A stretch of 64,000 nucleotides of DNA, taken from positions 620,001 to 684,000 of the forward strand of contig NZ_CP094974.1 of NCBI RefSeq assembly GCF_022869805.1, in the 5' to 3' direction. Position numbers and translations under genes: made by a program. Position 1 is the stretch's first letter. Every line of letters starts with the position of its first letter. Under the pieces are notes generated by a model. It saw only the letters and a list, made by a program, of their open reading frames with translations. It had not been told where the DNA came from and did not search any database. Positions 2,493-46,365 of the stretch are shown here, in pieces. The stretch comes from Halosolutus halophilus. GTDB lineage: Archaea > Halobacteriota > Halobacteria > Halobacteriales > Natrialbaceae.

Positions 2493-2798
2493 ATGGGAAC
2501 GACTCGCGTCAACTTTCGACTCCCGGACGAATTGGTCGAAAAGGCCGATATCGCAGCGAAGATTACCCATAAGGATCGGACTGAGATCGTCACCGAAGCG
2601 CTTCGCGCGTATCTGGACGAGATCGAAGACGAGGAAGCGTTCAAAGAGGAGCTCGTCGAGTTGTATCTTGAGGACGAGCTCGGCTTCGAGGTGCTCAAAG
2701 CGTTCGTCGGCCGGCAGGACGCCGAAGCAGTCCGCGCCTCGAAGACCGTCCTCGACCAGGGTGAAGCCCTCGCTGACGAGCTCGCGGAGCTGGAATGA
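2493..2798 (+). CDS. Ribbon-helix-helix antitoxin
   Basis: This 101-residue protein opens with a ribbon-helix-helix fold: the strand TRVNFRLPDELVEKAD followed by two helices to about residue 45, including RTEIVTEALRAYLDE. The C-terminal half is acidic and helical and probably wraps the partner toxin. The TGA overlaps the ATG of the PIN gene (ATGA at 2795-2798), so the two are translationally coupled. It likely binds the palindrome at 2465-2475 and represses its own operon. The pair is intact although the flanking genes are broken. Confidence 0.82.
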   Translation: MGTTRVNFRLPDELVEKADIAAKITHKDRTEIVTEALRAYLDEIEDEEAFKEELVELYLEDELGFEVLKAFVGRQDAEAVRASKTVLDQGEALADELAELE

Positions 2799-3286
2799 TC
2801 GTTGCCGATACGAGTGCCCTCATTTCGCTCGCCACGGCGGAGGTGGACGAACTCGTCTTCGCCGAGTTCGAGGTGGAGACGACGAGGACGGTCATCCGAG
2901 AACTCGAGGACACGGCCGAGTACGATGATCCACATGGCCGGGCCGCACAGCGAGTCCTCGATCACCGGGCGCAGTTCACCGTCCACGACGTCGCTGGTGG
3001 TGGGTTTCAATCGTCACGGATCGATCGCGGGGAAGCAAGCTGTGCGACGCTGGCCCACCAACTCGAGCCTGCGTTTCTCCTGACCGATGATCTCCGCGCG
3101 CTTCCGGAACTCCAGAACGTGACGGCGGCACAGGTCGCCCTCTCACCGATCGTCCTCCGTGCGCTCGTCAAACGCGGTGCGCTCGAGAACGGGGAGGCCC
3201 GAGAGCGACTTGAACAAATTGCGGCGGCGCGAGACTGGCTCGGCGCACCGATCTATCGACGTGCAACACGGTTGTTCGAGGAGTAG
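2795..3286 (+). CDS. PIN-domain toxin (DUF3368/VapC-like)
   Basis: The 163-residue protein begins MIVADTSALISL, the first acidic site of PIN ribonucleases. The later acidic residues fit DRGEASCATLA (about residue 76) and LLTDDLRAL (about residue 100), the expected order for a Mg-dependent RNA nuclease. It follows an RHH antitoxin with a four-base overlap, the standard order of such modules. Its length is typical of the DUF3368 branch, which is somewhat longer than classic VapC. Whether it is toxic cannot be seen. Confidence 0.8.
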   Translation: MIVADTSALISLATAEVDELVFAEFEVETTRTVIRELEDTAEYDDPHGRAAQRVLDHRAQFTVHDVAGGGFQSSRIDRGEASCATLAHQLEPAFLLTDDLRALPELQNVTAAQVALSPIVLRALVKRGALENGEARERLEQIAAARDWLGAPIYRRATRLFEE

Positions 3287-17447: not shown

Positions 17448-18269
17448 TCAGTCGTCTTTCTGTATTCCGGTCGTCATCAGCTGGGTCAACTGTTCGAGGG
17501 ATGATTCCTCCGGAGTCCGGACATCGATGAGGTTCCCCTGGTAGAGGACGCCGATTCGGTCGGCGATCTCGAGAACCGATTCGATGTTGTGGCTGACGAT
17601 GATGATCGTCATTCCCTCGTCTTCTTTGAGCTTCTGCAGGGTCGTGTGGACCATGTCAGTCGCGTCGACGGAGAGCGCGCTCGTCGGCTCGTCAAGGATG
17701 ATCACCTCGGGATCGAACGCGAGCGCGCGGCTGATCGCGAACAGTTGGCGTTCGCCGCCAGAAAAGAATTCGACCTCCGTCTCGATGTTGAGGTCGCGAC
17801 CGAGCGTGTCGTTGACGATTTCGTCGGCTCGCTTGTACGTCTCCTCCCAGTCGATCTGTTTTAGCGGACCGATGCCCTTGGTCGGGAACTGTCCCATGAA
17901 GATGTTCGTCGCGACGTCCAGGTCGTCCATCAACGCCAGGTCCTGGTAGACGGTCTCGATGCCGATGGCGCGAGCGTCGCTCGGACTGGAGAACGTGACC
18001 GGTTCTCCCTCGTAGTACAGTTGGCCGTCAGTCGGCGCGTGAACGCCACAGAGGACGTTCATCAACGTCGACTTTCCAGCGCCGTTATCCCCGACGAGCG
18101 CAAAGATCTCGTTATCACGGATCTCGAGGTCGATGTCTTCGATCGCGATAATTCGCCCGAACTGCTTCTTGACGTTCCTGGCGACGACCTTCCCGTCACC
18201 CTCGGGCGGCGAGCCGCTCCCGGCCGCGCCCGACGAGACGTCGAGTTCCGCGGTTTCGTCTACGCTCAT
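17448..18269 (-). CDS. Sugar ABC transporter ATP-binding protein
   Basis: The 273-residue protein has one nucleotide-binding domain: Walker A GDNGAGKST (about residue 58), Q-loop in TVYQDLAL, signature FSGGERQLF, Walker B VIILDEPTSAL and the switch His in IVSHN. It belongs to the CUT2 (ribose/fructose type) group but has a single domain, like FrcA, and not the tandem domain of RbsA. Its ATG overlaps the permease stop (ATGA), so it is the last gene of a binding protein - permease - ATPase operon. Confidence 0.9.
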   Translation of the reverse strand: MSVDETAELDVSSGAAGSGSPPEGDGKVVARNVKKQFGRIIAIEDIDLEIRDNEIFALVGDNGAGKSTLMNVLCGVHAPTDGQLYYEGEPVTFSSPSDARAIGIETVYQDLALMDDLDVATNIFMGQFPTKGIGPLKQIDWEETYKRADEIVNDTLGRDLNIETEVEFFSGGERQLFAISRALAFDPEVIILDEPTSALSVDATDMVHTTLQKLKEDEGMTIIIVSHNIESVLEIADRIGVLYQGNLIDVRTPEESSLEQLTQLMTTGIQKDD

Positions 18270-19279
18270 GCGGCACCACTCGCGAGGATGCGACTGCGAA
18301 GTTTCGACTGCGTACTGTACAGGAGTATCGCGACCAGCAACACGATTCCGTTGTACATCTGAATCTCGGTTGCGCCCACACTGGCAGTGTTGCTCAGTGC
18401 GGATCGAACGACTTCGATGAGGATGACGCCCCCGAGAGCGCCGGTGATCATCCCTCGGCCGCCGAAGAGGCTGATTCCGCCGATAACCGCGCCCGCGAAG
18501 GCCTGGAAGACGAGTCCCTCTCCGATCAAGGGCGGGACGACGCCGGTGAATCCGGTGATCATGAGTCCCGCAATCGCGGCGAGGATTCCGCTGATCGTGT
18601 ACACGGCGATGATCATTCGCTCGGTGTTGATACCGACGTCCCGGGCGGCCTTCTCGTTACTGCCGATCGCGTACACCGCCTGGCCGAACGTGGTGAACTT
18701 CATCACGTATCCGAACAGGGCGAACGCGGCGAGCATGATCCCGATCGCGACCCACGGTTCGCCGCCGGGGTACAGATACGCGTCGGGAAGTCCGCTGATC
18801 GGTTGCGTGTTCAATGCCGTTTTCGCCCCCTGGAAGATGATGAGGAACGCGAGCGTCTGCAGGAACGGGTTCAGCCCGAACTTGCCGATCATGACGCCGT
18901 TGACCAGGCCGATCGTGGCGCCGACGAGGACGATGATTGCGAATCCGAGAAAGGGGTTCGAGATGACGCCCCAGCAGCTCGGGCACGACCCGAGGAGCAT
19001 CCCGGTGAAAATCGCGGAGAACCCGGCGATAGATCCGATCGACAGATCGAAATTCCCGGAGAGTAGGCAGAGACTCTCGGCGAGAACGAGCAGGCCGAGC
19101 GGTACCGCCGCCCACAGGATGAGTTCGATCGACCGAAAGTTTCGGAACGTCTGGGGGGCGAGGACGAGGATAGCGGCGATCACAATGGCCAGTATCGGCC
19201 AGATCATATTATCCAGCAGTGTTAACGCCATATCGTCTGTCCCGTCGAAACGGTTACTTATTCGGTTTTGTATAGCCAT
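18266..19279 (-). CDS. Sugar ABC transporter permease (RbsC-like)
   Basis: The 337-residue protein is almost wholly hydrophobic, with 8-10 predicted membrane helices, the family segment SGNFDLSIGSIAGFSAI near residue 75 and AIGSNEKAARDVGIN near 205, the cytoplasmic loop that meets the ATPase. It is a CUT2 permease. A second ATG at 19231 would trim 16 residues. It lies 45 bp after the binding-protein gene and overlaps the ATPase gene by four bases. Confidence 0.9.
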   Translation of the reverse strand: MAIQNRISNRFDGTDDMALTLLDNMIWPILAIVIAAILVLAPQTFRNFRSIELILWAAVPLGLLVLAESLCLLSGNFDLSIGSIAGFSAIFTGMLLGSCPSCWGVISNPFLGFAIIVLVGATIGLVNGVMIGKFGLNPFLQTLAFLIIFQGAKTALNTQPISGLPDAYLYPGGEPWVAIGIMLAAFALFGYVMKFTTFGQAVYAIGSNEKAARDVGINTERMIIAVYTISGILAAIAGLMITGFTGVVPPLIGEGLVFQAFAGAVIGGISLFGGRGMITGALGGVILIEVVRSALSNTASVGATEIQMYNGIVLLVAILLYSTQSKLRSRILASGAA

Positions 19280-19324: not shown

Positions 19325-20449
19325 TTATCCCCAGACGTTCCCCCAGAGGTACGGCTGGTCCGCGTTCTCTTCGGTGATGATAATGTTGTTCGTCTTGAAC
19401 CAGGGGTGGCCGTTCTGTTCGTCGATTTCGGCGGGGGCCCAGATGTCCTCGGACCATAATTCAACGTCCTTGTAGTCCCCGGTCTGGATGTCGAGATCGC
19501 CCGATTCCACGGTCGACCCGACCTCCGGAATGGCGTCGGAGCCGTCCTCGTGGTACATCCGCAGGTACTCGATCGCGATCGGGTTGTAGAAGTAGTTCGG
19601 TTGGTCGGCCGCCGCGTCGATCACGCCGTCGCCGATCAACTCGTTTACTTCTCCGCTGCCGTCCATCTGCGTGAGGATGATGTGGTCGTCCTCTCCCTTC
19701 GGCGCGTCGAGTCCGAGATTCTCGAGTGCGCGCACGACGCCGAGCCCCATCGAGAGGTTGCCCGAGTAGATGCCGTCGACTTCGTCGTTGGCGTTAATCC
19801 ACTCCTGGGTGACTTCCTGCGCCGTATCGCGCGCGAACTTGCCGTTGAGCACGTCGCTAACGACGACGCGGTCGTCCTCCTCCATCACGTCGAGAAAGCC
19901 CTGACTCCGTTGGTTCGCCGATTGGTTCCCCTGCGGTCCGCGAACGTCCAGCACCGTCCACTCGTCCTGATCGCCGCGCTGTTCTTCGAGCGAAGCGATC
20001 ATCTCCTGTGCACACGCTTCGCCGCCCGCGTAGTTGCTAAAGCCGACGTACAGTGGTATCTCCGAGCTGGAGGTATCGGCGTTCGTGGCGATCACGGGAA
20101 TTCCGTCGTCGATTGCGTTGTTGATCGCACCTTCCGCCGCACCTGTGTCCCAGACGCCGACGATGATGCCGTCGTAGCCCTGGTTGGCCATGTCTCGAAT
20201 GTCCGAGACCTGTTGCTGAGCGGATTGCTCGTTCGGCCGCACGTCGAGGTCGACGCCGATCTGCTCGGCGTAGAATTCGGCCGCCTCGATGTAGGCCGTG
20301 ATCCAGGATCCGCCACGGACGTACGCCGAGAGGCCGATCTGGTTGAATTCGCTGTCGCCACCCCCCGCACCGGTACAGCCCGCAACCATTCCCACAACAG
20401 CCGTAGCGCTGGCTCGCTTGAGGAACTGCCTTCTGTCAGGGTATGTCAT
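19325..20449 (-). CDS. Sugar ABC transporter substrate-binding lipoprotein
   Basis: The 374-residue protein begins with a Tat-type signal (DRRQFLKRAS) ending in the lipobox VAGC at residues 22-25, so it should be a lipid-anchored extracellular binding protein. The remainder is a periplasmic-binding-protein type 1 fold (RbsB-like) with DGIIVGVWDTGAAEGAI and GIPVIATNADTS. It is the first gene of the importer operon. Its promoter shows TTTATT about 25-30 bp before the ATG and two direct TGATTGTCA repeats further upstream, shared with the divergent SDR operon. Confidence 0.9.
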   Translation of the reverse strand: MTYPDRRQFLKRASATAVVGMVAGCTGAGGGDSEFNQIGLSAYVRGGSWITAYIEAAEFYAEQIGVDLDVRPNEQSAQQQVSDIRDMANQGYDGIIVGVWDTGAAEGAINNAIDDGIPVIATNADTSSSEIPLYVGFSNYAGGEACAQEMIASLEEQRGDQDEWTVLDVRGPQGNQSANQRSQGFLDVMEEDDRVVVSDVLNGKFARDTAQEVTQEWINANDEVDGIYSGNLSMGLGVVRALENLGLDAPKGEDDHIILTQMDGSGEVNELIGDGVIDAAADQPNYFYNPIAIEYLRMYHEDGSDAIPEVGSTVESGDLDIQTGDYKDVELWSEDIWAPAEIDEQNGHPWFKTNNIIITEENADQPYLWGNVWG

Positions 20450-20490
20450 ACATAGCAGAGACTAAACCAATACCAAATAAAGCTTTTTTA

Positions 20491-20519
20491 TGATTGTCAT
20501 ACATATTTATTGATTGTCA
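20491..20519. promoter_or_regulatory. Direct repeats in the divergent importer/SDR promoter
   Basis: TGATTGTCA occurs at 20491-20499 and again at 20511-20519, exactly 20 bp apart, or about two helical turns. The site lies upstream of the TATA-like boxes of both the importer (start 20449) and the SDR operon (start 20598; TTAATA at 20567-20572). This suits binding of a dimeric regulator that co-controls uptake and catabolism. The regulator is unknown. Confidence 0.5.
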
Positions 20520-20597
20520 GATTTGCGATCGGCACAGTTGTGAACTGGCTGACAGTCACCGTGAGATTAATACCTTCGACTCGAGTTGGCTCCGACC

Positions 20598-21383
20598 ATG
20601 TCAGATTCGCTAACGGGGCGGACAGCCTTGATCACCGGGGCAGCTTCCGGAATCGGACGCGGAATTGCAACGACGCTCGCAGAGGCGGGCACCGACATCG
20701 TCGTCGCCGACGTTCGGCGCGAGCCGAAACGGGGCAAGTACTACCAATCGGACCTCGAAACGCCGACGGACGCTCTCGTCGAAGAGGCTCACGGCGTGGA
20801 GTCACTGTACGTCGAGACCGATATCGGGACAGAATCCGACGTCCGCGAGTTGATCGACGCGACGGTCGATCGGTTCGGGGGACTGGATATCCTCGTGAAC
20901 AACGCCGGCATCCAGATACTCGGCGAAACCAGCGACCTCACGGCCGAGGACTGGCATCGAGTGATGGACGTGAACATCACCAGCTGCTTCCTGACCGCGA
21001 AGTACGGAATGGAACACCTCCGCGAGTCGGAGAGCGGGCGGATCATCAACGTCTCGAGTATCAACGCGTACTTCGGCGGCGGCGGTGCGCCGTACGCGGC
21101 CAGTAAGGCAGGCATGGTGAATCTCACCCGGGACCTCGCGATCGAGGCGGCCCGAAGCGACGTCACCGTCAATTCGATTCTCCCGGGCGTGATCAAGACG
21201 CCGATGCAAGATCAGAACGACGAAGAGACCCAACGAGAACAGCGGGAGGCGACGTTGCTGTCACGCCTCGGAACACCGGAAGACGTCGGAAAAGCCGTCC
21301 GTTTCCTCGCGAGCGACGACGCAGAGTGGATCACGGGGGCCGAGTTACTGGTCGACGGCGGCTACTGCGCGGCCGGCTACTGA
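20598..21383 (+). CDS. SDR-family oxidoreductase
   Basis: I chose the ATG at 20598 because it gives a compact Rossmann start and sits about 25 bp after TTAATA, as in leaderless haloarchaeal transcripts. The 261 residues show TGAASGIGRG (cofactor loop), NNAG, the catalytic Ser in NVSSINAY, and YAASK near residue 166, ending with LLVDGGY. This is a classical NAD(P)-dependent short-chain dehydrogenase, as in sugar or sugar-acid dehydrogenases. It is the first gene of a four-gene operon with an AGE isomerase, an FSA-like aldolase and a PfkB kinase; only 2 bp separate it from the next start. Confidence 0.88.
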   Translation: MSDSLTGRTALITGAASGIGRGIATTLAEAGTDIVVADVRREPKRGKYYQSDLETPTDALVEEAHGVESLYVETDIGTESDVRELIDATVDRFGGLDILVNNAGIQILGETSDLTAEDWHRVMDVNITSCFLTAKYGMEHLRESESGRIINVSSINAYFGGGGAPYAASKAGMVNLTRDLAIEAARSDVTVNSILPGVIKTPMQDQNDEETQREQREATLLSRLGTPEDVGKAVRFLASDDAEWITGAELLVDGGYCAAGY

Positions 21384-21385
21384 CG

Positions 21386-22564
21386 ATGTGCCCGACGCAC
21401 ACCGCTGACGTGTGGGATCCGAAGTGGCTTCGGGAACGCGGGAACGAGATCCTCGAATTTTACTATCCCGCCTGTCTCAACGACGACGGGTATCGCCACC
21501 GGTTCCGCGCGGACGGGACGGCCGAACCGTCGGTCGAACCCCTCGTCGGAACCTGCCGGTTCATCTACGGATTTGCCGAAGGGGTCCACCTCGACGGACC
21601 GGCGTGGTGCGTCCACGCGGCGCGACACGGAATCGATCGGCTTCGAACCGCGTTCGCCGACGACGTCCACGGCGGATTCTACTGGGAACTCGCCGAGGAC
21701 GGATCGATCGACGAGACGAAATACGCGTACGGCCACGCGTTCGCGCTGCTCGCCCTCTCGCAGGCGAGCAGTGCCGACGTGGCGGCCGTCGACGCGGAGA
21801 TCGCCGCCGTCTACGACCTCCTCGACGATCGCCTCTTCGAGCCGGAGTACGGGCTGTACGCCGTCGAAGCGACGCGAGAGTGGGAGCCGATCACGTACCG
21901 CGGGCAGAACGCGAACATGCACCTGTGCGAAGCCTGTCTCGCGGCGTACGAGGCGACCGGCGACGAGCGGTACCTCGAGCGGGCGAGCACGATCGCGACG
22001 GCCGTCGTGCGCTGTCTGTCGACCGGCGAGGGCAACATCTGGGAGCACTTCGACGAGGAGTGGACCGCTGACTGGACGTACAACGCCGACGACCCCGACA
22101 ACCTCTTTCGACCCCACGGCTACCTCCCCGGTCACTTCGTCGAGTGGGCGAAACTGCTCTGCCTGCTCGATCAACACGAGCCGACCGACTGGCGGATCCC
22201 GGCCGCGGTGAGGCTGTTCGAATCGGCGGTCGACGTCGCCTGGGACGAGCGCCACGGCGGCCTTCAGTACGCGTTCGATCGCGACGGGCGAATCACGAAC
22301 GACCGCAAGTACTACTGGGTCACCGCCGAGCAGTTGGCCGCGGCCGCGACGCTGATGGCCGCCGGGGAGCCGTTCGAGGCGTGGTACGAGCGAACCTGGG
22401 CGTACGCGTTGGATACCCACGTCGCCGCCGACGCGCCGGTCTGGCACCGCGTCCTCGCCCGCGACGGATCGACGGTTCCGGAGAGTACGCCGTTGTCGCC
22501 GCCGAACAAGACCGACTACCACGTCCTGAGCGCGCTCAAGACGTGTCGAGACGCCGTACTGTGA
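21386..22564 (+). CDS. AGE-family aldose-ketose isomerase (YihS/mannose isomerase type)
   Basis: The 392-residue (alpha/alpha)6-barrel protein has YGHAFALLALS, YRGQNANMHLCEA, the pair His250 and Glu253 in PGHFVEWAKLL, and a late His379 in KTDYH. These match the positions of the catalytic His248/Glu251 and His383 of E. coli YihS, which isomerises mannose and sulfoquinovose to their ketoses, better than renin-binding-protein-type epimerases. With an FSA-like aldolase and a PfkB kinase directly downstream it probably feeds an aldose into a ketose-phosphate route. A frameshifted paralogue lies at 12350-13557. Confidence 0.82.
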   Translation: MCPTHTADVWDPKWLRERGNEILEFYYPACLNDDGYRHRFRADGTAEPSVEPLVGTCRFIYGFAEGVHLDGPAWCVHAARHGIDRLRTAFADDVHGGFYWELAEDGSIDETKYAYGHAFALLALSQASSADVAAVDAEIAAVYDLLDDRLFEPEYGLYAVEATREWEPITYRGQNANMHLCEACLAAYEATGDERYLERASTIATAVVRCLSTGEGNIWEHFDEEWTADWTYNADDPDNLFRPHGYLPGHFVEWAKLLCLLDQHEPTDWRIPAAVRLFESAVDVAWDERHGGLQYAFDRDGRITNDRKYYWVTAEQLAAAATLMAAGEPFEAWYERTWAYALDTHVAADAPVWHRVLARDGSTVPESTPLSPPNKTDYHVLSALKTCRDAVL

Positions 22565-22596
22565 ATTTATACGATCGAAGCCGTAGTGAGGAGCAC

Positions 22597-23259
22597 ATGC
22601 AGTTGTACATCGATACGGCGTCAGAATCCGACGCTCGCGAATTCGCCCGGTACGGGTTCATCGACGGCGTGACGACGAACCCGTCCCTCGTGGCGTCGAC
22701 GGACTCGTCGTACAGAACGGTCGTGGAAACGCTCGCTGACGCGGTCGATGGTCCCGTGTTCGCCCAGGTACTCGCGGAGGACGCCGACGGGATGGTCGAA
22801 CAGGCCCGGACGTACGACGCGTGGGCCGACGATGTCGTCGTCAAACTGCCGGCGACGCGGGCCGGGTACGAGGCGCTCGGCCGGATTCGCGCCGACGGCA
22901 TCGAAGCCGGCATCACGGTGTTGTTTTCGGTCACGCAGGCGATCCTCGCCGCGAAGAACGACGCGACGTTCGTCGCGCCGTACGTCGGCAGGCTCGACGA
23001 CGCCGGCGAGGACGGCCTCGAGGTCGTTGCCGGCATCCAAACGGCGTTCGACGAGTACGGGTTCGAGACGGAGGTCCTCGCCGCGAGCGTCCGAAACCGG
23101 CGGCAGGCGACCGCGCTCTACCGCGCGGGCGTCGACGCGGTGACGCTCCCGCCGACCGTCCTGGAAGCGCACTTTGACCACCACAAGACCGCCGAGGGCG
23201 TCGCGGGCTTCCTGTCCGACTGGGGAACCCGCGGAAACCCGATCGAGAGCGACGACTGA
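22597..23259 (+). CDS. Transaldolase / fructose-6-phosphate aldolase-like protein
   Basis: The 220-residue TIM-barrel protein is the size of E. coli FSA/TalC. It has GVTTNPSLV (residues 24-32), the Schiff-base Lys83 in VVVKLPAT, TVLFSVTQA near 109, and ASVRNRRQATALYRAGVDAVTLPP near 168-190. Such enzymes cleave or transfer dihydroxyacetone units from ketose (phosphates). Its place between an aldose-ketose isomerase and a sugar kinase suggests it splits the ketose phosphate made by its neighbours. Confidence 0.85.
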   Translation: MQLYIDTASESDAREFARYGFIDGVTTNPSLVASTDSSYRTVVETLADAVDGPVFAQVLAEDADGMVEQARTYDAWADDVVVKLPATRAGYEALGRIRADGIEAGITVLFSVTQAILAAKNDATFVAPYVGRLDDAGEDGLEVVAGIQTAFDEYGFETEVLAASVRNRRQATALYRAGVDAVTLPPTVLEAHFDHHKTAEGVAGFLSDWGTRGNPIESDD

Positions 23260-23271
23260 CGAGGACTACCG

Positions 23272-24237
23272 ATGACGCAACAACTACTGGTCGCCGGAGA
23301 CACGCTGGTCGACTTCCTGCCGAACCGGCCGGGACGGATCGCCGACGTGGAGTCGTTCTCGCCGAAGTTCGGCGGTTCGGCGGCGAACGTCGCCGTCGCG
23401 CTCGAGCGGATCGGCCATCCGCCGCTGTTCTGGACGCGGATCGCTCGAGACCGCTTCGGAGACTACCTCGCTGACGCTCTGCACGAGAGCGCGATCCCCG
23501 ACCGATTCGTCGTCAGAGATCCCGACGCGAAAACGACGCTGGCGTTCGTCTCCAACGACGAGGACGGGGAGCGACAGTTCGACTTCTACCGGGCCGGAAC
23601 CGCGGACACCCGCATGCAGACCGGCACCGTGCCGGACGAGACGCTGGCCGACGTCTCGTGGGTACACCTCACCGGCGTCACGATGAGCGTCGAACCGAGC
23701 AGAGGCGCGATGCTCGATCTCGCCGCTCGCGCCCGACGCCAGGGCTGTACCGTTTCGCTCGACCCGAACACGCGCCCGGAGATGTGGGCCTCGGAAGACG
23801 AGTTCGCGACCGTTATCCGGGACGTGCTCGAGCAGGTCGACGTGGTGAAAGCGACCCCCGAGGATCTCGAGGCCGCCGGCTTCGACGACGACGATCCAGA
23901 GGCGCTCGCGGCCGCCGTCGCAGCGTTCGGCCCGCACACGGTGTTGCTCACCCTCGGCGGGGAGGGCGCGTTCTCGTACGGAACGAGCGAGAGTCCGCTG
24001 TCCGGTATCGAAACCCACGGCGGCTACGACGTCGATGTCGTCGACACCACCGGCGCGGGCGACGGCTTCCTCGCCGGTGCGATCGCGTCGCTCGCCGCCG
24101 GCGTCGAGAGCCCGGAACGGGTCCTCGCGGTTGCGAACGCCGTCGGCGCGATCACCACGACGAAGCAGGGATCGGTAACCGCGCTCACCGGAGCCGATCC
24201 CATCCGGGAGCTGGTCGGACCGCTCCCCTGGGACTGA
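23272..24237 (+). CDS. PfkB-family sugar kinase (ketohexokinase-like)
   Basis: The 321-residue ribokinase-fold protein has the substrate lid GGSAANVAVALERIG near residue 36 and the ATP/anion-hole motif DTTGAGDGF near 257-265 with the catalytic Asp. The start (VAGDTLVDFLPNRPG) and SLDPNTRPEMW resemble haloarchaeal ketohexokinase and 2-keto-3-deoxygluconate kinase. Since UxuA products also need such a kinase, both substrates are possible. It is the last gene of the SDR-AGE-aldolase-kinase operon, 12 bp after the aldolase. Confidence 0.85.
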   Translation: MTQQLLVAGDTLVDFLPNRPGRIADVESFSPKFGGSAANVAVALERIGHPPLFWTRIARDRFGDYLADALHESAIPDRFVVRDPDAKTTLAFVSNDEDGERQFDFYRAGTADTRMQTGTVPDETLADVSWVHLTGVTMSVEPSRGAMLDLAARARRQGCTVSLDPNTRPEMWASEDEFATVIRDVLEQVDVVKATPEDLEAAGFDDDDPEALAAAVAAFGPHTVLLTLGGEGAFSYGTSESPLSGIETHGGYDVDVVDTTGAGDGFLAGAIASLAAGVESPERVLAVANAVGAITTTKQGSVTALTGADPIRELVGPLPWD

Positions 24238-24372
24238 GCGATCAGACGGTCGGCGACACCGATCGGCCGTCGTCGATCGCCGCGAGTCGAATCGCACACC
24301 CTCGCCATAACGAAGCGTCTTCCGGGTCGGCTACCTGAACAGTAATGATCATCGGCGCTGATTGTCCGACGT

Positions 24373-24552
24373 ATGTCGGAAGAACCGTCAACCACCGAAC
24401 TGTGTGACAGGTACGCGGCGCTGTACCCGGGCGCGGTCACGGACGTCCTCGTCGAAGCGGAATCGATCGCGGTGACGGAATCCGTGGTTCGGACGGCGAT
24501 CGAAGACGGTGTCGCGCCGGTCGACGCCTACGATCGGTTCGGGGAGTTCTGA
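24373..24552 (+). pseudogene. Internally deleted RraA-family gene (59 codons)
   Basis: The frame reads MSEEPSTTELCDRYAALYPGA then VTDVL, the N-terminus of RraA/dimethylmenaquinone-methyltransferase-like proteins, and joins in frame to AESIAVTESVVRTAIEDGV and AYDRFGEF, the C-terminus of the same family. The middle, roughly 150 residues including the substrate-binding Gly-rich loops, has been removed. RraA-fold proteins often act as aldolases in sugar-acid clusters, so this is probably the stub of a lost pathway gene. A deliberate miniprotein is unlikely. Confidence 0.65.
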
Positions 24553-30109: not shown

Positions 30110-30874
30110 CTACGAGTACGTTACGTTCAGTTCGATCACGTTTACCGTCTCGAGAATTTTCTTCGGCAGTTCTTCTTCGAAGTACATCCCACGCATCCGG
30201 TTTACCGGCCCGGAGACGCTGACCGCGCCGAGAGGACGTCCGTCGTTGCTCAAAATGGGCGCCGCGATGCAGCGCAGCCCTTCGAGTCGCTCCTCGTCGT
30301 CGATCGCGTACCCGTTCTCCCGAACGGTTTCGAGTTCCGCCTCGAGTTCCTCGCGAGTGCTGACGGTTCGCTCGGTGCTCTGCGGAAGGCCGTGACGGTC
30401 GATAATCTTGTCGACCCGGCTCTCGGGCGAGTGGGCGAGGATGGCCTTTCCGAGGGCCGTTCCGTGGAGGTAGACTCTCGTTCCGACGTTCGAATCGACG
30501 CGGACTGCGCGATCGCCCTTCGCCTGGTGGATGTACACGCCACGTCCGTGTTCCTCGACCAGTAAGTTCGCAAGCTCGCCCGTCTCGTCGGCGAGTCGAT
30601 CGACTTCCGGCTTGGCGATGTCGTAGATCTGGACGCAGCCGCGGGCGTACGCGCCCAGTTCGAGAAACCGGATCCCCACCTTGTACTCCGTCCCGTTTTT
30701 CACGACGTACTCTTCCTGCTCGAGGGTGCTGAGGTAGTTGTGCACCGTGCTTTTCGGTAACTCGAGGTAATCGGCGAGTTCGGTCACGCCGCAGCCGTTC
30801 AGTTTCCGCAAGGCTTCGACGATCGTAAACGTCATTTCCGTCGTTTTCACCGGGTTTTTGGCTCGTTTCGTCAT
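30110..30874 (-). CDS. IclR-family transcriptional regulator
   Basis: The 254-residue protein has an N-terminal winged helix (TFTIVEALRKLNGCGVTELADYL, then LPKSTVHNYLSTLEQEEYV, residues 14-60) and the IclR effector domain to the end (GTALGKAILAHSPE, RCIAAPILSNDGRPLGAVSVSGP). In Haloferax an IclR protein (XacR) activates pentose-oxidation genes. The XacE/XacF-like genes next door make a similar role likely here. A partly palindromic GTTCACC-type site (30915-30931) lies just upstream of its TATA-like TTAAATACT, which may allow autoregulation. Confidence 0.88.
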   Translation of the reverse strand: MTKRAKNPVKTTEMTFTIVEALRKLNGCGVTELADYLELPKSTVHNYLSTLEQEEYVVKNGTEYKVGIRFLELGAYARGCVQIYDIAKPEVDRLADETGELANLLVEEHGRGVYIHQAKGDRAVRVDSNVGTRVYLHGTALGKAILAHSPESRVDKIIDRHGLPQSTERTVSTREELEAELETVRENGYAIDDEERLEGLRCIAAPILSNDGRPLGAVSVSGPVNRMRGMYFEEELPKKILETVNVIELNVTYS

Positions 30875-31295: not shown

Positions 31296-32165
31296 CTACA
31301 CGACCGTTACCGTGTTCTCGAGGCGGCCGATTCCGTCGATTTCGATCGCGACTCGATCGCCCGCTTCGAGCGTGAAGTCGTCGTCGGGGACGAGCGAGGT
31401 GCCCGTCAACAGGACCGTCGTCTCGGGGATCGCGTTATGGCGGGCGAGATACGAGACGAGTTCGTCGTGCGATCGGACCATTTCGGAGGTCGACGTTCGA
31501 TCGTCGTACATCGTCTCCCCATCGCGTTCAATCGTCATCCGTATCTCGAGGTCGTCCCAGTCGTCGCGAACGGACGCCGGGACGACACACGGCCCGATCG
31601 AGCAACTCCTGTCGTACACCTTTGCCTGCGGAAGATACAGCGGATTGTCCCCCTCGATCGACCGACTGCTCATGTCGTTGCCGATCGTGTACCCGACGAT
31701 CTCCCCGCGGTGAAGCACGATTCCGAGTTCCGGTTCCGGGACGTCCCACGACGAATCACCGCGGATGCCGACGGCGTCGTTCGGGCCCACGAGGCGGCCG
31801 GGCGTCGCCTTGAAGAACAGTTCCGGCCGATCCGCTTCGTAGACGTCGAGATAGACCTCCGGCAGTCCGGACTCGGCTTCGCGCGCGGCCTCGCTGATCT
31901 CGTAGGTGACCCCCGCGGCCCACACCTCCTCGGGGACGACGGGAAGCGCCGCGTCCTCGACACCCGTGAAATCGCGAGCGATCGGCGCGTCGCCCGCGAG
32001 TCGTCGAAGATAGGATTCGAGCGTACGGCCCTCGGCCGCCGCCGTTCGAGCGGCGTCAGAAATGCCTCGGGGCGAGTCGGTCGTTTCCGTGAGGTCGTAG
32101 GCGGTTTCGTCGATGACGGTGACGAGTCGGTACCCGTCGGACCGGTGGCTCCGGTAACAGCGCAT
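31296..32165 (-). CDS. FAH-family 2-keto-3-deoxypentonate dehydratase (XacE/KdaD-like)
   Basis: The 289-residue protein has RPELFFKATPGRLVGP, DSSWDVPEPELGIV with the metal-binding Glu residues, and GYTIGNDMSSRSIEGDNPLY then LPQAKVYDRS. These segments are typical of archaeal 2-keto-3-deoxyarabinonate/xylonate dehydratases, which make alpha-ketoglutarate semialdehyde. The gene is divergent from a XacF-like dehydrogenase that would use this product. A TATA-like TTATTATAGG lies about 27 bp before the ATG, with the palindrome 32202-32216 just upstream of it. Confidence 0.83.
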   Translation of the reverse strand: MRCYRSHRSDGYRLVTVIDETAYDLTETTDSPRGISDAARTAAAEGRTLESYLRRLAGDAPIARDFTGVEDAALPVVPEEVWAAGVTYEISEAAREAESGLPEVYLDVYEADRPELFFKATPGRLVGPNDAVGIRGDSSWDVPEPELGIVLHRGEIVGYTIGNDMSSRSIEGDNPLYLPQAKVYDRSCSIGPCVVPASVRDDWDDLEIRMTIERDGETMYDDRTSTSEMVRSHDELVSYLARHNAIPETTVLLTGTSLVPDDDFTLEAGDRVAIEIDGIGRLENTVTVV

Positions 32166-32201: not shown

Positions 32202-32216
32202 GTACAACTGTTGTAC
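32202..32216. promoter_or_regulatory. Perfect palindrome in the divergent xacE/xacF-like promoter
   Basis: GTACAAC-T-GTTGTAC lies between the divergent dehydratase (start 32165) and dehydrogenase (start 32260) genes, upstream of the dehydratase TATA box. Its TACA/TGTA half-sites resemble those of 29377-29397, so one IclR-type regulator could control both. Confidence 0.55.
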
Positions 32217-32259: not shown

Positions 32260-33702
32260 ATGCCGACAGAGTACTCCAACTACGTTGACGGCAAGTGGAC
32301 GGAATCACGAACGGGCAACGTCTTCGAGACGTCGAATCCGGCACACCCCGGCGAGACGGTCGGCGTGTATCAGCAATCGTCGGAAGCAGACGCCGAAGCT
32401 GCCGTCGAGGCCGCGGCGGCGGCTGCACCCGAGTGGGCGAACACGCCGGGGCCGGCCCGTGGAAAGATTCTCACGGAGACGGCGTCGATTCTCTCCGATC
32501 GCGCGGACGAGCTGACCGAGACGCTCGTTCGCGAGGAGGGCAAGACGAAGCCCGAAGCGAGCGGAGAAGTACAACGGGCGATCGACATCTTCGCGTACTA
32601 CGGCGCGAAGGCCGCGGACGTCGGCGGAACGGTCAAGGCGCCCAGCGGGCGCGATTCGCGGCTGTACACGGTGAACGAACCGGTCGGGGTGGCCGCGCTC
32701 ATCACGCCGTGGAACTATCCCATCGCGATTCCGGCGTGGAAGCTCGCGCCGGCGCTCGCGGCGGGGAACGCGGTCGTCACCAAACCCGCCTCGCTCGCCC
32801 CGGCTGTCGCGATCGGAATCGTCGAGGCCCTCGAGTCGGCTGGGCTCCCCGACGGCGTGGTCAACCTGGTCACCGGGCCGGGCAGCAGCGTCGGCTCGAC
32901 GTTCGTCACCCACGAGGCGGTGGACGCGGTGTCGTTCACCGGGAGCACGAAGGTCGGAAACACCGTCTACGGGCAAGCCGCGCCGGACCAAAAGCGCGTT
33001 CAGCTCGAGCTGGGTGGCAAGAATCCGGCGATCGTGATGCCGAGCGCCGACGTCGACGAGGCGGTGGAGATCGCTGCGACAGGTGCCTTCGGCGTCACGG
33101 GCCAGGCGTGTACCGCGACCTCGCGCGCGATCGTCCACGAGGACGTCTACGACGAGTTCGTCGAGGGCGTCGTCTCGTACGGCGAGGGGCTCTCGATCGG
33201 CGACGGACTCGAGGGCGCCGACATGGGGCCCCACGTCAGCGAGTCGGAACTCGAGGGCACGCTCGACTACGTCGACGCCGGCCGTAGGGAGGGCGCGACG
33301 CTCGAAACCGGCGGCGAGCGAGCCGACGCCGGAGAGGGCTACTTCGTCGAGCCGACCATCTTCTCCGACGTATCGTCGGAGATGCGAATCGCGCAGGAGG
33401 AGATATTCGGGCCGGTACTCGCCGTCATCCCCGTTTCCGATTTCGACGAAGCGGTTGCGGTCGCCAACGACGTCGAGTACGGTCTCTCCGCGAGCATCGT
33501 CACGAACGATCACCGCGAGGCCAACCGCTTCGTCGACGAGATCGAGGCCGGCGTCGTCAAGATCAACGAAAAGACGACCGGGCTCGAACTGCACGTCCCG
33601 TTCGGCGGGATGAAAGCGTCCTCGAGCGAGACGTATAGGGAGCAAGGCGACGCGGGACTGGACTTCTTCACGATCTCGAAGACGGTCTACGATAATTACT
33701 GA
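32260..33702 (+). CDS. Alpha-ketoglutarate semialdehyde dehydrogenase (XacF-like)
   Basis: The 480-residue aldehyde dehydrogenase has FTGSTKVGN, the general base Glu in LELGGKNPAIV near residue 252 and the catalytic Cys in GQACTATSR near 283. It ends with LHVPFGGMKASSSETYREQG and DFFTISKTVY, typical of the alpha-ketoglutarate-semialdehyde dehydrogenases of the pentose-oxidation pathway. It would form alpha-ketoglutarate from the product of the divergent XacE-like enzyme. Other aldehydes (lactaldehyde, glycolaldehyde) cannot be excluded. Confidence 0.84.
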   Translation: MPTEYSNYVDGKWTESRTGNVFETSNPAHPGETVGVYQQSSEADAEAAVEAAAAAAPEWANTPGPARGKILTETASILSDRADELTETLVREEGKTKPEASGEVQRAIDIFAYYGAKAADVGGTVKAPSGRDSRLYTVNEPVGVAALITPWNYPIAIPAWKLAPALAAGNAVVTKPASLAPAVAIGIVEALESAGLPDGVVNLVTGPGSSVGSTFVTHEAVDAVSFTGSTKVGNTVYGQAAPDQKRVQLELGGKNPAIVMPSADVDEAVEIAATGAFGVTGQACTATSRAIVHEDVYDEFVEGVVSYGEGLSIGDGLEGADMGPHVSESELEGTLDYVDAGRREGATLETGGERADAGEGYFVEPTIFSDVSSEMRIAQEEIFGPVLAVIPVSDFDEAVAVANDVEYGLSASIVTNDHREANRFVDEIEAGVVKINEKTTGLELHVPFGGMKASSSETYREQGDAGLDFFTISKTVYDNY

Positions 33703-36547: not shown

Positions 36548-37390
36548 TCAGTCGTCGACGGCCTCGACGGTGTTTTCCAGCGTTCCGATTCCCTGGATTT
36601 CCACTTCGACGGTGTCGCCGTCCTCGAGTTTAATGTCTTGGAAGGTTCCGACCCCTTCGGGGGTTCCGGTCGCGATGATATCACCGGGTGAGAGTTCGAC
36701 GCGGCTCGACGCGAACGAGACGAGTTCCGCGACGGAGCGGATCATCATCTCCGTGTTGTCGTCCTGGAGGACATCGCCGTTGACGCGCGAAACGATGTCC
36801 AGAGATTGGGGGTCGTCGATCTCATCGATGACGACTGTTGGACCGGCCGGCGTCGTATCGCGCATCGTCTTACCGGAGAACCAATCGATCAGGTCGTCGT
36901 CGCCCACTTGGAGCCCTAACTGGAGGTCTCTGGCCGACGTGTCGTTCAGAATCGTATATCCGGCGACGTAGTCGAGAGCGTCCTCCGGATCGATGTGACG
37001 CGCCGAGTCGCCGATGACGGCCGCGAGTTCGGCTTCGTAGTCGATCTCCTGGGTAACGCTCGTGTGATACGAGATCGGTTCCCCGTGTCCCACGAGTGTC
37101 TGTGGCAGTTTCATAAACAGGAGCGGCCACTCCGGAACCGCGATATCCGATTCCTCGGCGTGGGCCTCGTAGTTGAGCGCGGCACAGAAGACGGTGTTTC
37201 GCTCGGTCGTCGGTGGGAGGTAGGTAATCTCCGAGACTTCGAAGGTTTCTTCGTCCGCGCCAGCGGCGTCGCCGGGGCGCGAGAGGGCGTCGCGAAACGA
37301 GTCAAACGCCGTCGTGACGTCTCGGACGACGTCGTCTTCGAAATACCCGATTCGGTCCTGTCCGTCTGCGTGAAAGCGTACAAGTTGCAC
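36548..37390 (-). CDS. FAH-family hydrolase (FAHD1/diketo-acid type)
   Basis: The 280-residue protein has an N-terminal RIGYFEDD domain and the FAH catalytic domain: NTVFCAALNYEAHAEE, the metal-binding EIDYEAELAAVIG, YTILNDTSARDLQL and IIATGTPEGVG. This type includes acylpyruvases and the 2,4-diketo-3-deoxy-sugar-acid hydrolases of L-rhamnose/L-fucose degradation. It lies 145 bp upstream of the UxaA genes on the same strand, so it may be the first gene of that operon. It is not close to the XacE-like FAH protein at 31296-32165. Confidence 0.8.
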   Translation of the reverse strand: MQLVRFHADGQDRIGYFEDDVVRDVTTAFDSFRDALSRPGDAAGADEETFEVSEITYLPPTTERNTVFCAALNYEAHAEESDIAVPEWPLLFMKLPQTLVGHGEPISYHTSVTQEIDYEAELAAVIGDSARHIDPEDALDYVAGYTILNDTSARDLQLGLQVGDDDLIDWFSGKTMRDTTPAGPTVVIDEIDDPQSLDIVSRVNGDVLQDDNTEMMIRSVAELVSFASSRVELSPGDIIATGTPEGVGTFQDIKLEDGDTVEVEIQGIGTLENTVEAVDD

Positions 37391-37580
37391 GATAGGCCCA
37401 TCATGCTAAGACACAATGACTCTTCCGGCTTTTTGACGCGACGCTAATCCACGTGAAGGGTAACGGATTTTCTGGGTCGAAATTTTCCGGGCCGATACGT
37501 TTAGTATTGAGGTTAATTTGTAGTGATATCATCAGCTGTCTTAGTTTCACATGGACTGGGCCTTGTTTAGACGCCTGGAA

Positions 37581-44322: not shown

Positions 44323-44559
44323 TCAGTTTTCTCTTGGGTCGTTGACAAAGCGATAAAGTCCACGATTTACTTTTTCGATCCAGCCTGCGTCGATAAGTCC
44401 TTGCAGTGCCCGATTGATGTATTGACGTCGCGTATCAAGTTCTTCTTCGAGGCGTTTCGGATTTGCATAACCCCATGGTATTCCCTCTTCCCGCCCTTCT
44501 TTTAGCACGTCAAGGATAGCTTCTTGTCGGTCGTTGGGTTCGAAATTCTCATTCACCAT
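44323..44559 (-). CDS. Winged-helix DNA-binding protein
   Basis: About 78 residues from the ATG at 44559 (44580 also possible) form one winged helix: NDRQEAILDVLKEGREEGIP, NPKRLEEELDTRRQYINRALQGL with the recognition helix, and IEKVNRGLYRFVNDP as the wing. Such single-domain proteins are common in haloarchaeal viruses and plasmids as regulators. It stands alone on the minus strand between the DUF457 remnant and a divergent zinc-binding protein. Confidence 0.75.
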   Translation of the reverse strand: MVNENFEPNDRQEAILDVLKEGREEGIPWGYANPKRLEEELDTRRQYINRALQGLIDAGWIEKVNRGLYRFVNDPREN

Positions 44560-44667
44560 CTTAGCGCTGGCTACTCTCATGCAACACTAAACATTTCGGT
44601 GGTAGTTCAGCTCTTCATTACAAACACTGTTACAAAATAAGTTACAATGTAACTACTAAGTGGGTCG

Positions 44668-46077: not shown

Positions 46078-46365
46078 ATGAACGAGGCAGACGACGCGAT
46101 TTTGGAGTACTTGCAGGAATTGGAGACAGACACGGGCCACCGGGTTTCGCTCCCGCCGACTGCCGTGTGGTACAATCTGGTCGAGGAACTCGGTGTCTTG
46201 GAGCGGAGCCAGAATACAATCTCTCGTCGCATGAACGTGCTCTCGGACGCCGGGTTGCTCGAGAAAACCAACGAGAAACGCGGCTACTACAGAATTACCG
46301 ATACGGGACTTGCCTATCTAAATGGTGAACTGGTTGCAAGCGACCTCGAACGGCCTAAAGAGTAA
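46078..46365 (+). CDS. Winged-helix transcriptional regulator (PhiH1-repressor-like)
   Basis: The 95-residue protein has one winged helix: DDAILEYLQELETDTGHRVSL, VWYNLVEELGVLERSQNTISRRMNVL as helix-turn-helix, and GLLEKTNEKRGYYRITDTG as wing, plus a short tail. Small repressors of this kind are frequent in haloarchaeal viruses. It marks the right edge of the element-like region; the next gene belongs to the glycan locus. Confidence 0.75.
   Translation: MNEADDAILEYLQELETDTGHRVSLPPTAVWYNLVEELGVLERSQNTISRRMNVLSDAGLLEKTNEKRGYYRITDTGLAYLNGELVASDLERPKE

Follow-up and report, generated by a model that had tools for sequence, protein, structure and literature searches.

The question raised by this locus is whether short repeats in the gap between two divergent gene groups, an importer and a run of sugar-breakdown genes, form a control site that serves both. 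The window, meaning the whole analysed stretch of 64,000 nucleotides, belongs to a 5.06-Mb genome in a single contig, and within it a 148-bp gap (20450-20597) separates the importer on the minus strand from an SDR-AGE-aldolase-kinase run on the plus strand. The genes concerned are the following:

17448 to 18269, minus strand: importer ATPase, named by eye; aligns with orthologous loci
18266 to 19279, minus strand: importer permease, named by eye; aligns with orthologous loci
19325 to 20449, minus strand: importer substrate-binding protein (Peripla_BP_4, family match), gene 1 of the importer, with its ATG at 20449
20598 to 21383, plus strand: SDR dehydrogenase (family match), with its ATG at 20598
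21386 to 22564, plus strand: AGE-family epimerase (GlcNAc_2-epim, family match)
22591 to 23259, plus strand: TAL/FSA family aldolase; its top NCBIfam match, fructose-6-phosphate aldolase, lies under the cut-off of that family
23272 to 24237, plus strand: PfkB-family sugar kinase (family match)
30110 to 30874, minus strand: IclR-family regulator, candidate binder (PF01614, E 7.6e-43; PF09339, E 1.1e-13)

A large sugar-acid cluster spans 11338-38971. It includes two UxuA-like dehydratases (family matches) as well as lactonase-, rhamnose-mutarotase-, enolase-, FAH-, UxaA- and aldo-keto-reductase-like genes, which were named by eye or from matches below family cut-offs, and many genes of the cluster have relatives in Haloarcula and Salinigranum loci. 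The interval between the kinase and a second SDR gene (24365-24552) holds a reading frame of 59 aa (24373-24552, MSEEPSTTELCDRYAALYPGAV...), the start of which resembles a longer ORF in locus L041 by eye and which may be a truncated remnant. A 16-bp sequence with 6-bp inverted arms, TCCGACGTATGTCGGA, overlaps the start of this frame.

A preliminary description of this DNA had reported two 9-base repeats spaced by 20 bp, placed them between the importer and the SDR-AGE-aldolase-kinase genes, upstream of both TATA boxes, and proposed joint control of uptake and breakdown. The positional part was confirmed in full: both copies are exact and begin at 20491 and 20511 (20 bp from start to start), the gene assignments on either side of the 148 bp were upheld, and the boxes lie at 20476-20481 (importer) and 20567-20572 (SDR). 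The elements of the region are, in order:

20444 to 20454, plus strand: partial copy A, TGTCATACATA, a repeat of 20495-20505 at a spacing of 51 bp, overlapping with the start codon of the importer
20476 to 20481, minus strand: importer TATA box TTTATT, 32 nt before the ATG and in the same position as the boxes of the orthologs
20491 to 20499, minus strand: copy B, TGATTGTCA on the plus strand and TGACAATCA in the importer sense, 9 nt from the importer TATA box
20511 to 20519, minus strand: copy C, identical to B and 20 bp farther from the importer promoter
20535 to 20547, no strand: palindrome CAGTTGTGAACTG with 5-bp arms between C and D, read by eye with its place checked
20550 to 20558, plus strand: copy D, TGACAGTCA in the SDR sense and TGACTGTCA on the minus strand, 8 nt from the SDR TATA box
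20567 to 20572, plus strand: SDR TATA box TTAATA, 31 nt before the ATG
20599 to 20607, plus strand: partial copy E, TGTCAGATT, a repeat of 20515-20523 at a spacing of 84 bp, overlapping with the start codon of the SDR gene

When each copy is oriented with the closer of the two genes, the word reads TGACARTCA. Copy B is surrounded by a 13-mer, TATGATTGTCATA (20489-20501), with palindromic arms of 5 bp, and copy D is an inverted third copy with one mismatch. Partial copy A may be due to chance, because its 11-mer occurs four times on the plus strand of the window, 11676 and 61370 included; for the 9-mer of copy E, no third occurrence was found on that strand.

Copies B and D lie at nearly equal distances from their own TATA boxes (9 vs 8 nt), each in the sense of its gene. 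The combined pattern TGACARTCA-N6-11-TTWAT, which was picked after the sites had been seen, has two matches in the 5.06-Mb genome, one per promoter and both in sense, and its reversed control has none. Agreement of 9-mers at no more than one mismatch, 7-10 nt from both TATA boxes, was reached in 18 of 20000 shuffles in a test anchored on the two TATA positions. The sense-oriented copy D at the SDR promoter, its near-equal TATA distance, the uniqueness of the arrangement in the genome and the shuffling result thus leave the proposed joint control better supported than before, and one regulator probably switches the importer and the sugar-breakdown genes together.

AT-rich intergenic DNA might also have come to repeat a word by chance or drift, without any regulatory role, and this is unlikely in our estimate though far from negligible. 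Any 9-mer repeat arises in the 148-bp gap in 2.6% of 5000 dinucleotide shuffles, and repeats of at least 9 bp within 60 bp number 46 in the window (G+C-rich for the most part), so that a look-elsewhere effect counts. The 20-bp pair taken alone is evidence of modest weight, and it is not conserved. Five TGTCA cores are present, which is less striking since some 5-mer attains five copies in 4.4% of shuffles if any 5-mer is permitted. The recurrence of the copy A 11-mer elsewhere in the window points the same way, as does a test for 8-mer repeats in the 150 bp preceding the importer: applied in the same way to every promoter, it showed the window to be unexceptional (p 0.22). Same-face phasing of the TGTCA cores was tried and rejected: with the period fitted, five points gave 0.015 and four gave 0.054, a weak result.

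In the window, exact TGATTGTCA is found only in these two copies (expected 0.34; at least two are reached in 4 of 100 shuffles). Window-wide enrichment is absent when one mismatch is allowed (10 copies vs 9.75 expected) and for TGANNNTCA (13 vs 12.8 expected), and the case therefore depends on clustering. The whole genome has five exact copies vs 10 of the reversed control; the other three were considered as a regulon and rejected, two of them (L003, L005) lying within predicted reading frames and one (L004) near a low-complexity stretch. A looser 15-mer is likewise not enriched genome-wide (56 matches vs 80 for the control), a count more in keeping with a dedicated operator than with a global one.

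Clustering in the gap itself is what speaks against chance. When the gap is dinucleotide-shuffled 5000 times, a 9-mer repeat spaced 19-21 bp appears in 0.04% of cases, and a 9-mer pair with a third copy at no more than one mismatch in 0.08%. All three matches to TGAYTGTCA in the window lie in this gap (expected 0.67; 1 of 100 shuffles reaches three). Three separate repeats of at least 9 bp fall within 165 bp, a region drawn so as to take in the start-codon copies, and none of 5000 shuffles reaches even two. It is this combined geometry, rare at 18/20000 and 0/5000 and with both of its genome matches here, that chance explains poorly.

Another possibility is a duplicated core promoter, in which each copy, read in the importer sense, would supply a BRE-like flank, TGACAATC, to the A/T-rich box that follows, and the copies would mark tandem importer starts, not regulator sites; we consider it improbable. 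Scored with a promoter matrix built from 22 orthologous promoters, TGACAATC followed by AATAAATATG gives the top score of the region (6.65, at -50), and TGACAATC followed by ATAAAAAAGC (4.97, at -70) comes close to the 5.35 of the box expected at -32. However, the training promoters span 4.2-22.9 and 20 of the 22 outscore both copies; copy D has no directly attached box, standing 8 nt from the SDR TATA, and the importer box at -32 sits in the orthologous position.

Sequences related to this flank, possibly an older element, precede boxes elsewhere. CGACAAYC stands before 4 of the 22 boxes (L041, L053, L073, L074), and in the Haloarcula-like group (genus g47, so called by eye as L052 and L057 match L041 and L043) this or a similar sequence often stands ahead of the importer TATA. 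In the six g47 genomes searched, YRACAAYNTTTATRTA has seven matches, five of them at the importer promoter; of the other two, one (G286) lies before a PTS fructose permease-like gene (by eye) and one (G397) has no evident link. The genome of the window has no match. In 40 leaderless promoters drawn from L036-L048 and the window, the flank favours C-G-A-n-A-A, a trend that fits a BRE and the duplicated promoter, and GACAA precedes the box in two, both importers (L041, L043). As likeness of the CGACAAYC type could stem from a BRE as well as from an operator, it was not counted as conservation of the repeat. A related sequence, CGACAATCTTTATGTA, occurs at G286:C1:917865-917880 (L099), upstream of the PTS fructose permease-like gene and then an EIIA-like gene (by eye), as well as at the importer promoters L053 and L073, and might mark a shared sugar regulon.

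Thirteen named loci, all haloarchaeal, and loci in further genomes encode orthologs of the importer protein at 60-72%. Among 125 genomes of the family of the window, only its own has the importer at E 1e-110 or better, from which we infer acquisition by transfer; weaker relatives (43-45%) are present in the family. Plasmid records gave 21 with a match, and in none does one place cover 80% of the query; the 15 of these 21 matches that were listed comprise the importer or the SDR only, the best place covering 51% of the query.

The preliminary description had tied its reading to conservation of the repeats wherever the divergent gene order is kept, and for the pair this comparison goes against it. 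The nearest divergent gene among the 13 named loci is an SDR in L036 and L037 and an aldolase in L038, L041, L043, L044, L045 and L047, and none of these eight loci has the pair. The TGATTGTCA pair is likewise found in 0 of 20 non-redundant orthologous importer promoters, of which 17 were scanned at one mismatch over 260 bp and three (L071, L073, L074) were searched over 450 bp with a narrower regular expression only, to which they gave no match. Not included in the 20 were L039 (which lacks DNA upstream), L067 (for which no upstream sequence was recovered), L075 (whose contig number and coordinates equal those of L059), duplicates judged by eye to have the same sequence (L049, L052, L054, L057, L058, L059, L066, L068, L069, L072) and paralogs at about 53% (L062, L063, L064, L070). 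Single one-mismatch copies are present in 2 of the 17 scanned promoters, namely CGACAGTCA at -47 in L036 and TGACATTCA at about -65 in L040, for which the start used in the scan was wrong by 3 nt. L036 is the closest of the 13 named loci (70% in the importer protein) and keeps the divergent SDR, with its near copy beside the importer TATA and TGACTGTTG on the SDR side. On a wider scale, TGAYTGTCA-N11-TGAYTGTCA is found in the window's own genome and in none of the other 390 of 391 class genomes. Other repeats upstream of orthologous importers (8-mers, 150 bp) reached p<0.05 in only 1 of 24 promoters, four paralogs at about 53% included (L048, 0.04). The importer protein of the closest relative shares only 70% identity with that of the window, and so turnover of the site and absence of function are not separable by these comparisons. 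All in all, the region looks like a lineage-specific operator, a control region of an ordinary kind.

With moderate confidence, the gap is read as a shared operator of two divergent promoters. A sugar-responsive regulator would recognise TGACARTCA, with site B just upstream of the importer BRE/TATA and site D just upstream of that of the SDR, each in the sense of the gene served. Site C, two helical turns behind B, would seat a second protein unit side by side with the first at the importer, and the uptake and breakdown genes would switch together. Cooperative binding at this spacing is plausible and matches the published habit of IclR proteins. We infer binding and, as the most likely mode, activation exerted directly upstream of the BRE, although repression would also be possible. 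The regulator would probably be encoded locally.

Within the shared-operator reading, the IclR protein encoded at 30110-30874 is the best candidate binder, a tentative identification that we regard as possible rather than likely. Its gene is the only clear regulator gene in the sugar cluster among the ORFs scanned; outside the cluster, there are a ribbon-helix-helix protein (2493-2798, PF01402) and two winged-helix matches under Pfam cut-offs (44323-44580 and 46078-46365). The ribbon-helix-helix gene overlaps an ORF that is PIN-like by eye and has no Pfam match at 0.001, and the two (2493-3286) are perhaps a toxin-antitoxin pair. IclR relatives adjoining the kinase (54-55%; L037, L041, L043) are similar in the segment that we take to be the recognition helix (KSTVHNYL vs KSTVHNHL). 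The TGACARTCA word is absent from the promoters of these three loci, and also, within 220 bp, from the importer promoters of L010, L011 and L012, where IclR relatives of 62-68% lie on the same contigs and the importers are only 43-45% identical to that of the window.

This absence from promoters linked to related IclR genes would suit a different regulator, e.g. a general sugar regulator, binding the element, as would the occurrence of CGACAATCTTTATGTA both at the L053/L073 importer promoters and before the PTS fructose permease-like gene in G286 (by eye). However, no genome-wide promoter set emerges, the strict pattern having two matches and the loose one fewer than its control, and such a binder seems very doubtful.

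In IclR tandem sites the centres are 18-22 nt apart, and the published consensus types are GKTYCRYW3-4RYGRAMC and TGRAACAN1-2TGTTYCA, according to the part of Suvorova and Gelfand 2021 (PMC8222616) drawn on here. The gap shares with these operators the spacing of about two turns (20 bp from B to C, within that range), an IclR gene in the cluster (30110-30874) and sugar catabolism. The sites differ, however, in being only 9 bp long with TGA/TCA arms, and neither consensus is fitted by eye, as TATGATTGTCATA and TATTGATTGTCAGAT are without TTYC/GRAA or TGRAACA arms. The third spaced copy and the partial copies set the gap further apart, and that paper deals with bacterial genomes. Retention of the site with related regulator and target was not seen at L037, L041, L043, L010, L011 or L012.

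A TTTC-N5-8-GAAA palindrome was searched for in seven loci and in window positions 10001-40000; the importer promoter of the window has none, and a looser pattern likewise had no match there. An IclR-type palindrome, TTTCGATAGGTGAAA, lies before the importer TATA in L037 (9933-9951), where the IclR gene adjoins the kinase, and, by eye, in L050. The sole match in window positions 10001-40000 is an inverted repeat at 37467-37484, which resembles an IclR-type site and lies about 80 bp upstream of an FAH-like gene (36548-37390, minus strand). Another candidate operator is a perfect 15-bp palindrome, GTACAACTGTTGTAC, at 32202-32216, flanked by FAH-like (31296-32165, minus strand) and aldehyde-dehydrogenase-like (32260-33702, plus strand) genes, both named by eye.

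PcaU of Acinetobacter offers a further comparison. Three-box IclR sites alternate in direction, and PcaU is cited as an example in the part of PMC8222616 drawn on here; compared by that description, the gap is alike in its three boxes of mixed orientation and differs in the distance of 39 bp from C to its third copy. In haloarchaea, XacR, GacR, RhcR and MscR are IclR-like activators of sugar genes (PMC11519228, main text). They resemble the present case in a local IclR gene and in having importer and catabolic genes in one cluster, the regulator role here being that of a candidate, whereas the importer here is of the Peripla_BP_4 kind and MscEFGK is CUT1. The main text of PMC11519228 does not contain the terms palindrom-, consensus, promoter or binding site and so offers no operator for comparison. 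No operator motif for XacR, GfcR or GlpR was found in the literature at hand, nor any in that on haloarchaeal IclR proteins.

A more elaborate arrangement, quite improbable in our view, is an array of the 9-bp TGACARTCA word that brackets both TATA boxes, from B, C and D to the partial copies at the start codons, in roughly helical phase, so that a multimer could coat or loop 165 bp. If true, it would be a kind of site not found in the literature at hand on archaeal IclR proteins. The simpler shared operator, if true, would provide a compact, testable binding word for a haloarchaeal sugar regulator, together with a divergent promoter pair that is available for use and perhaps sugar-responsive.
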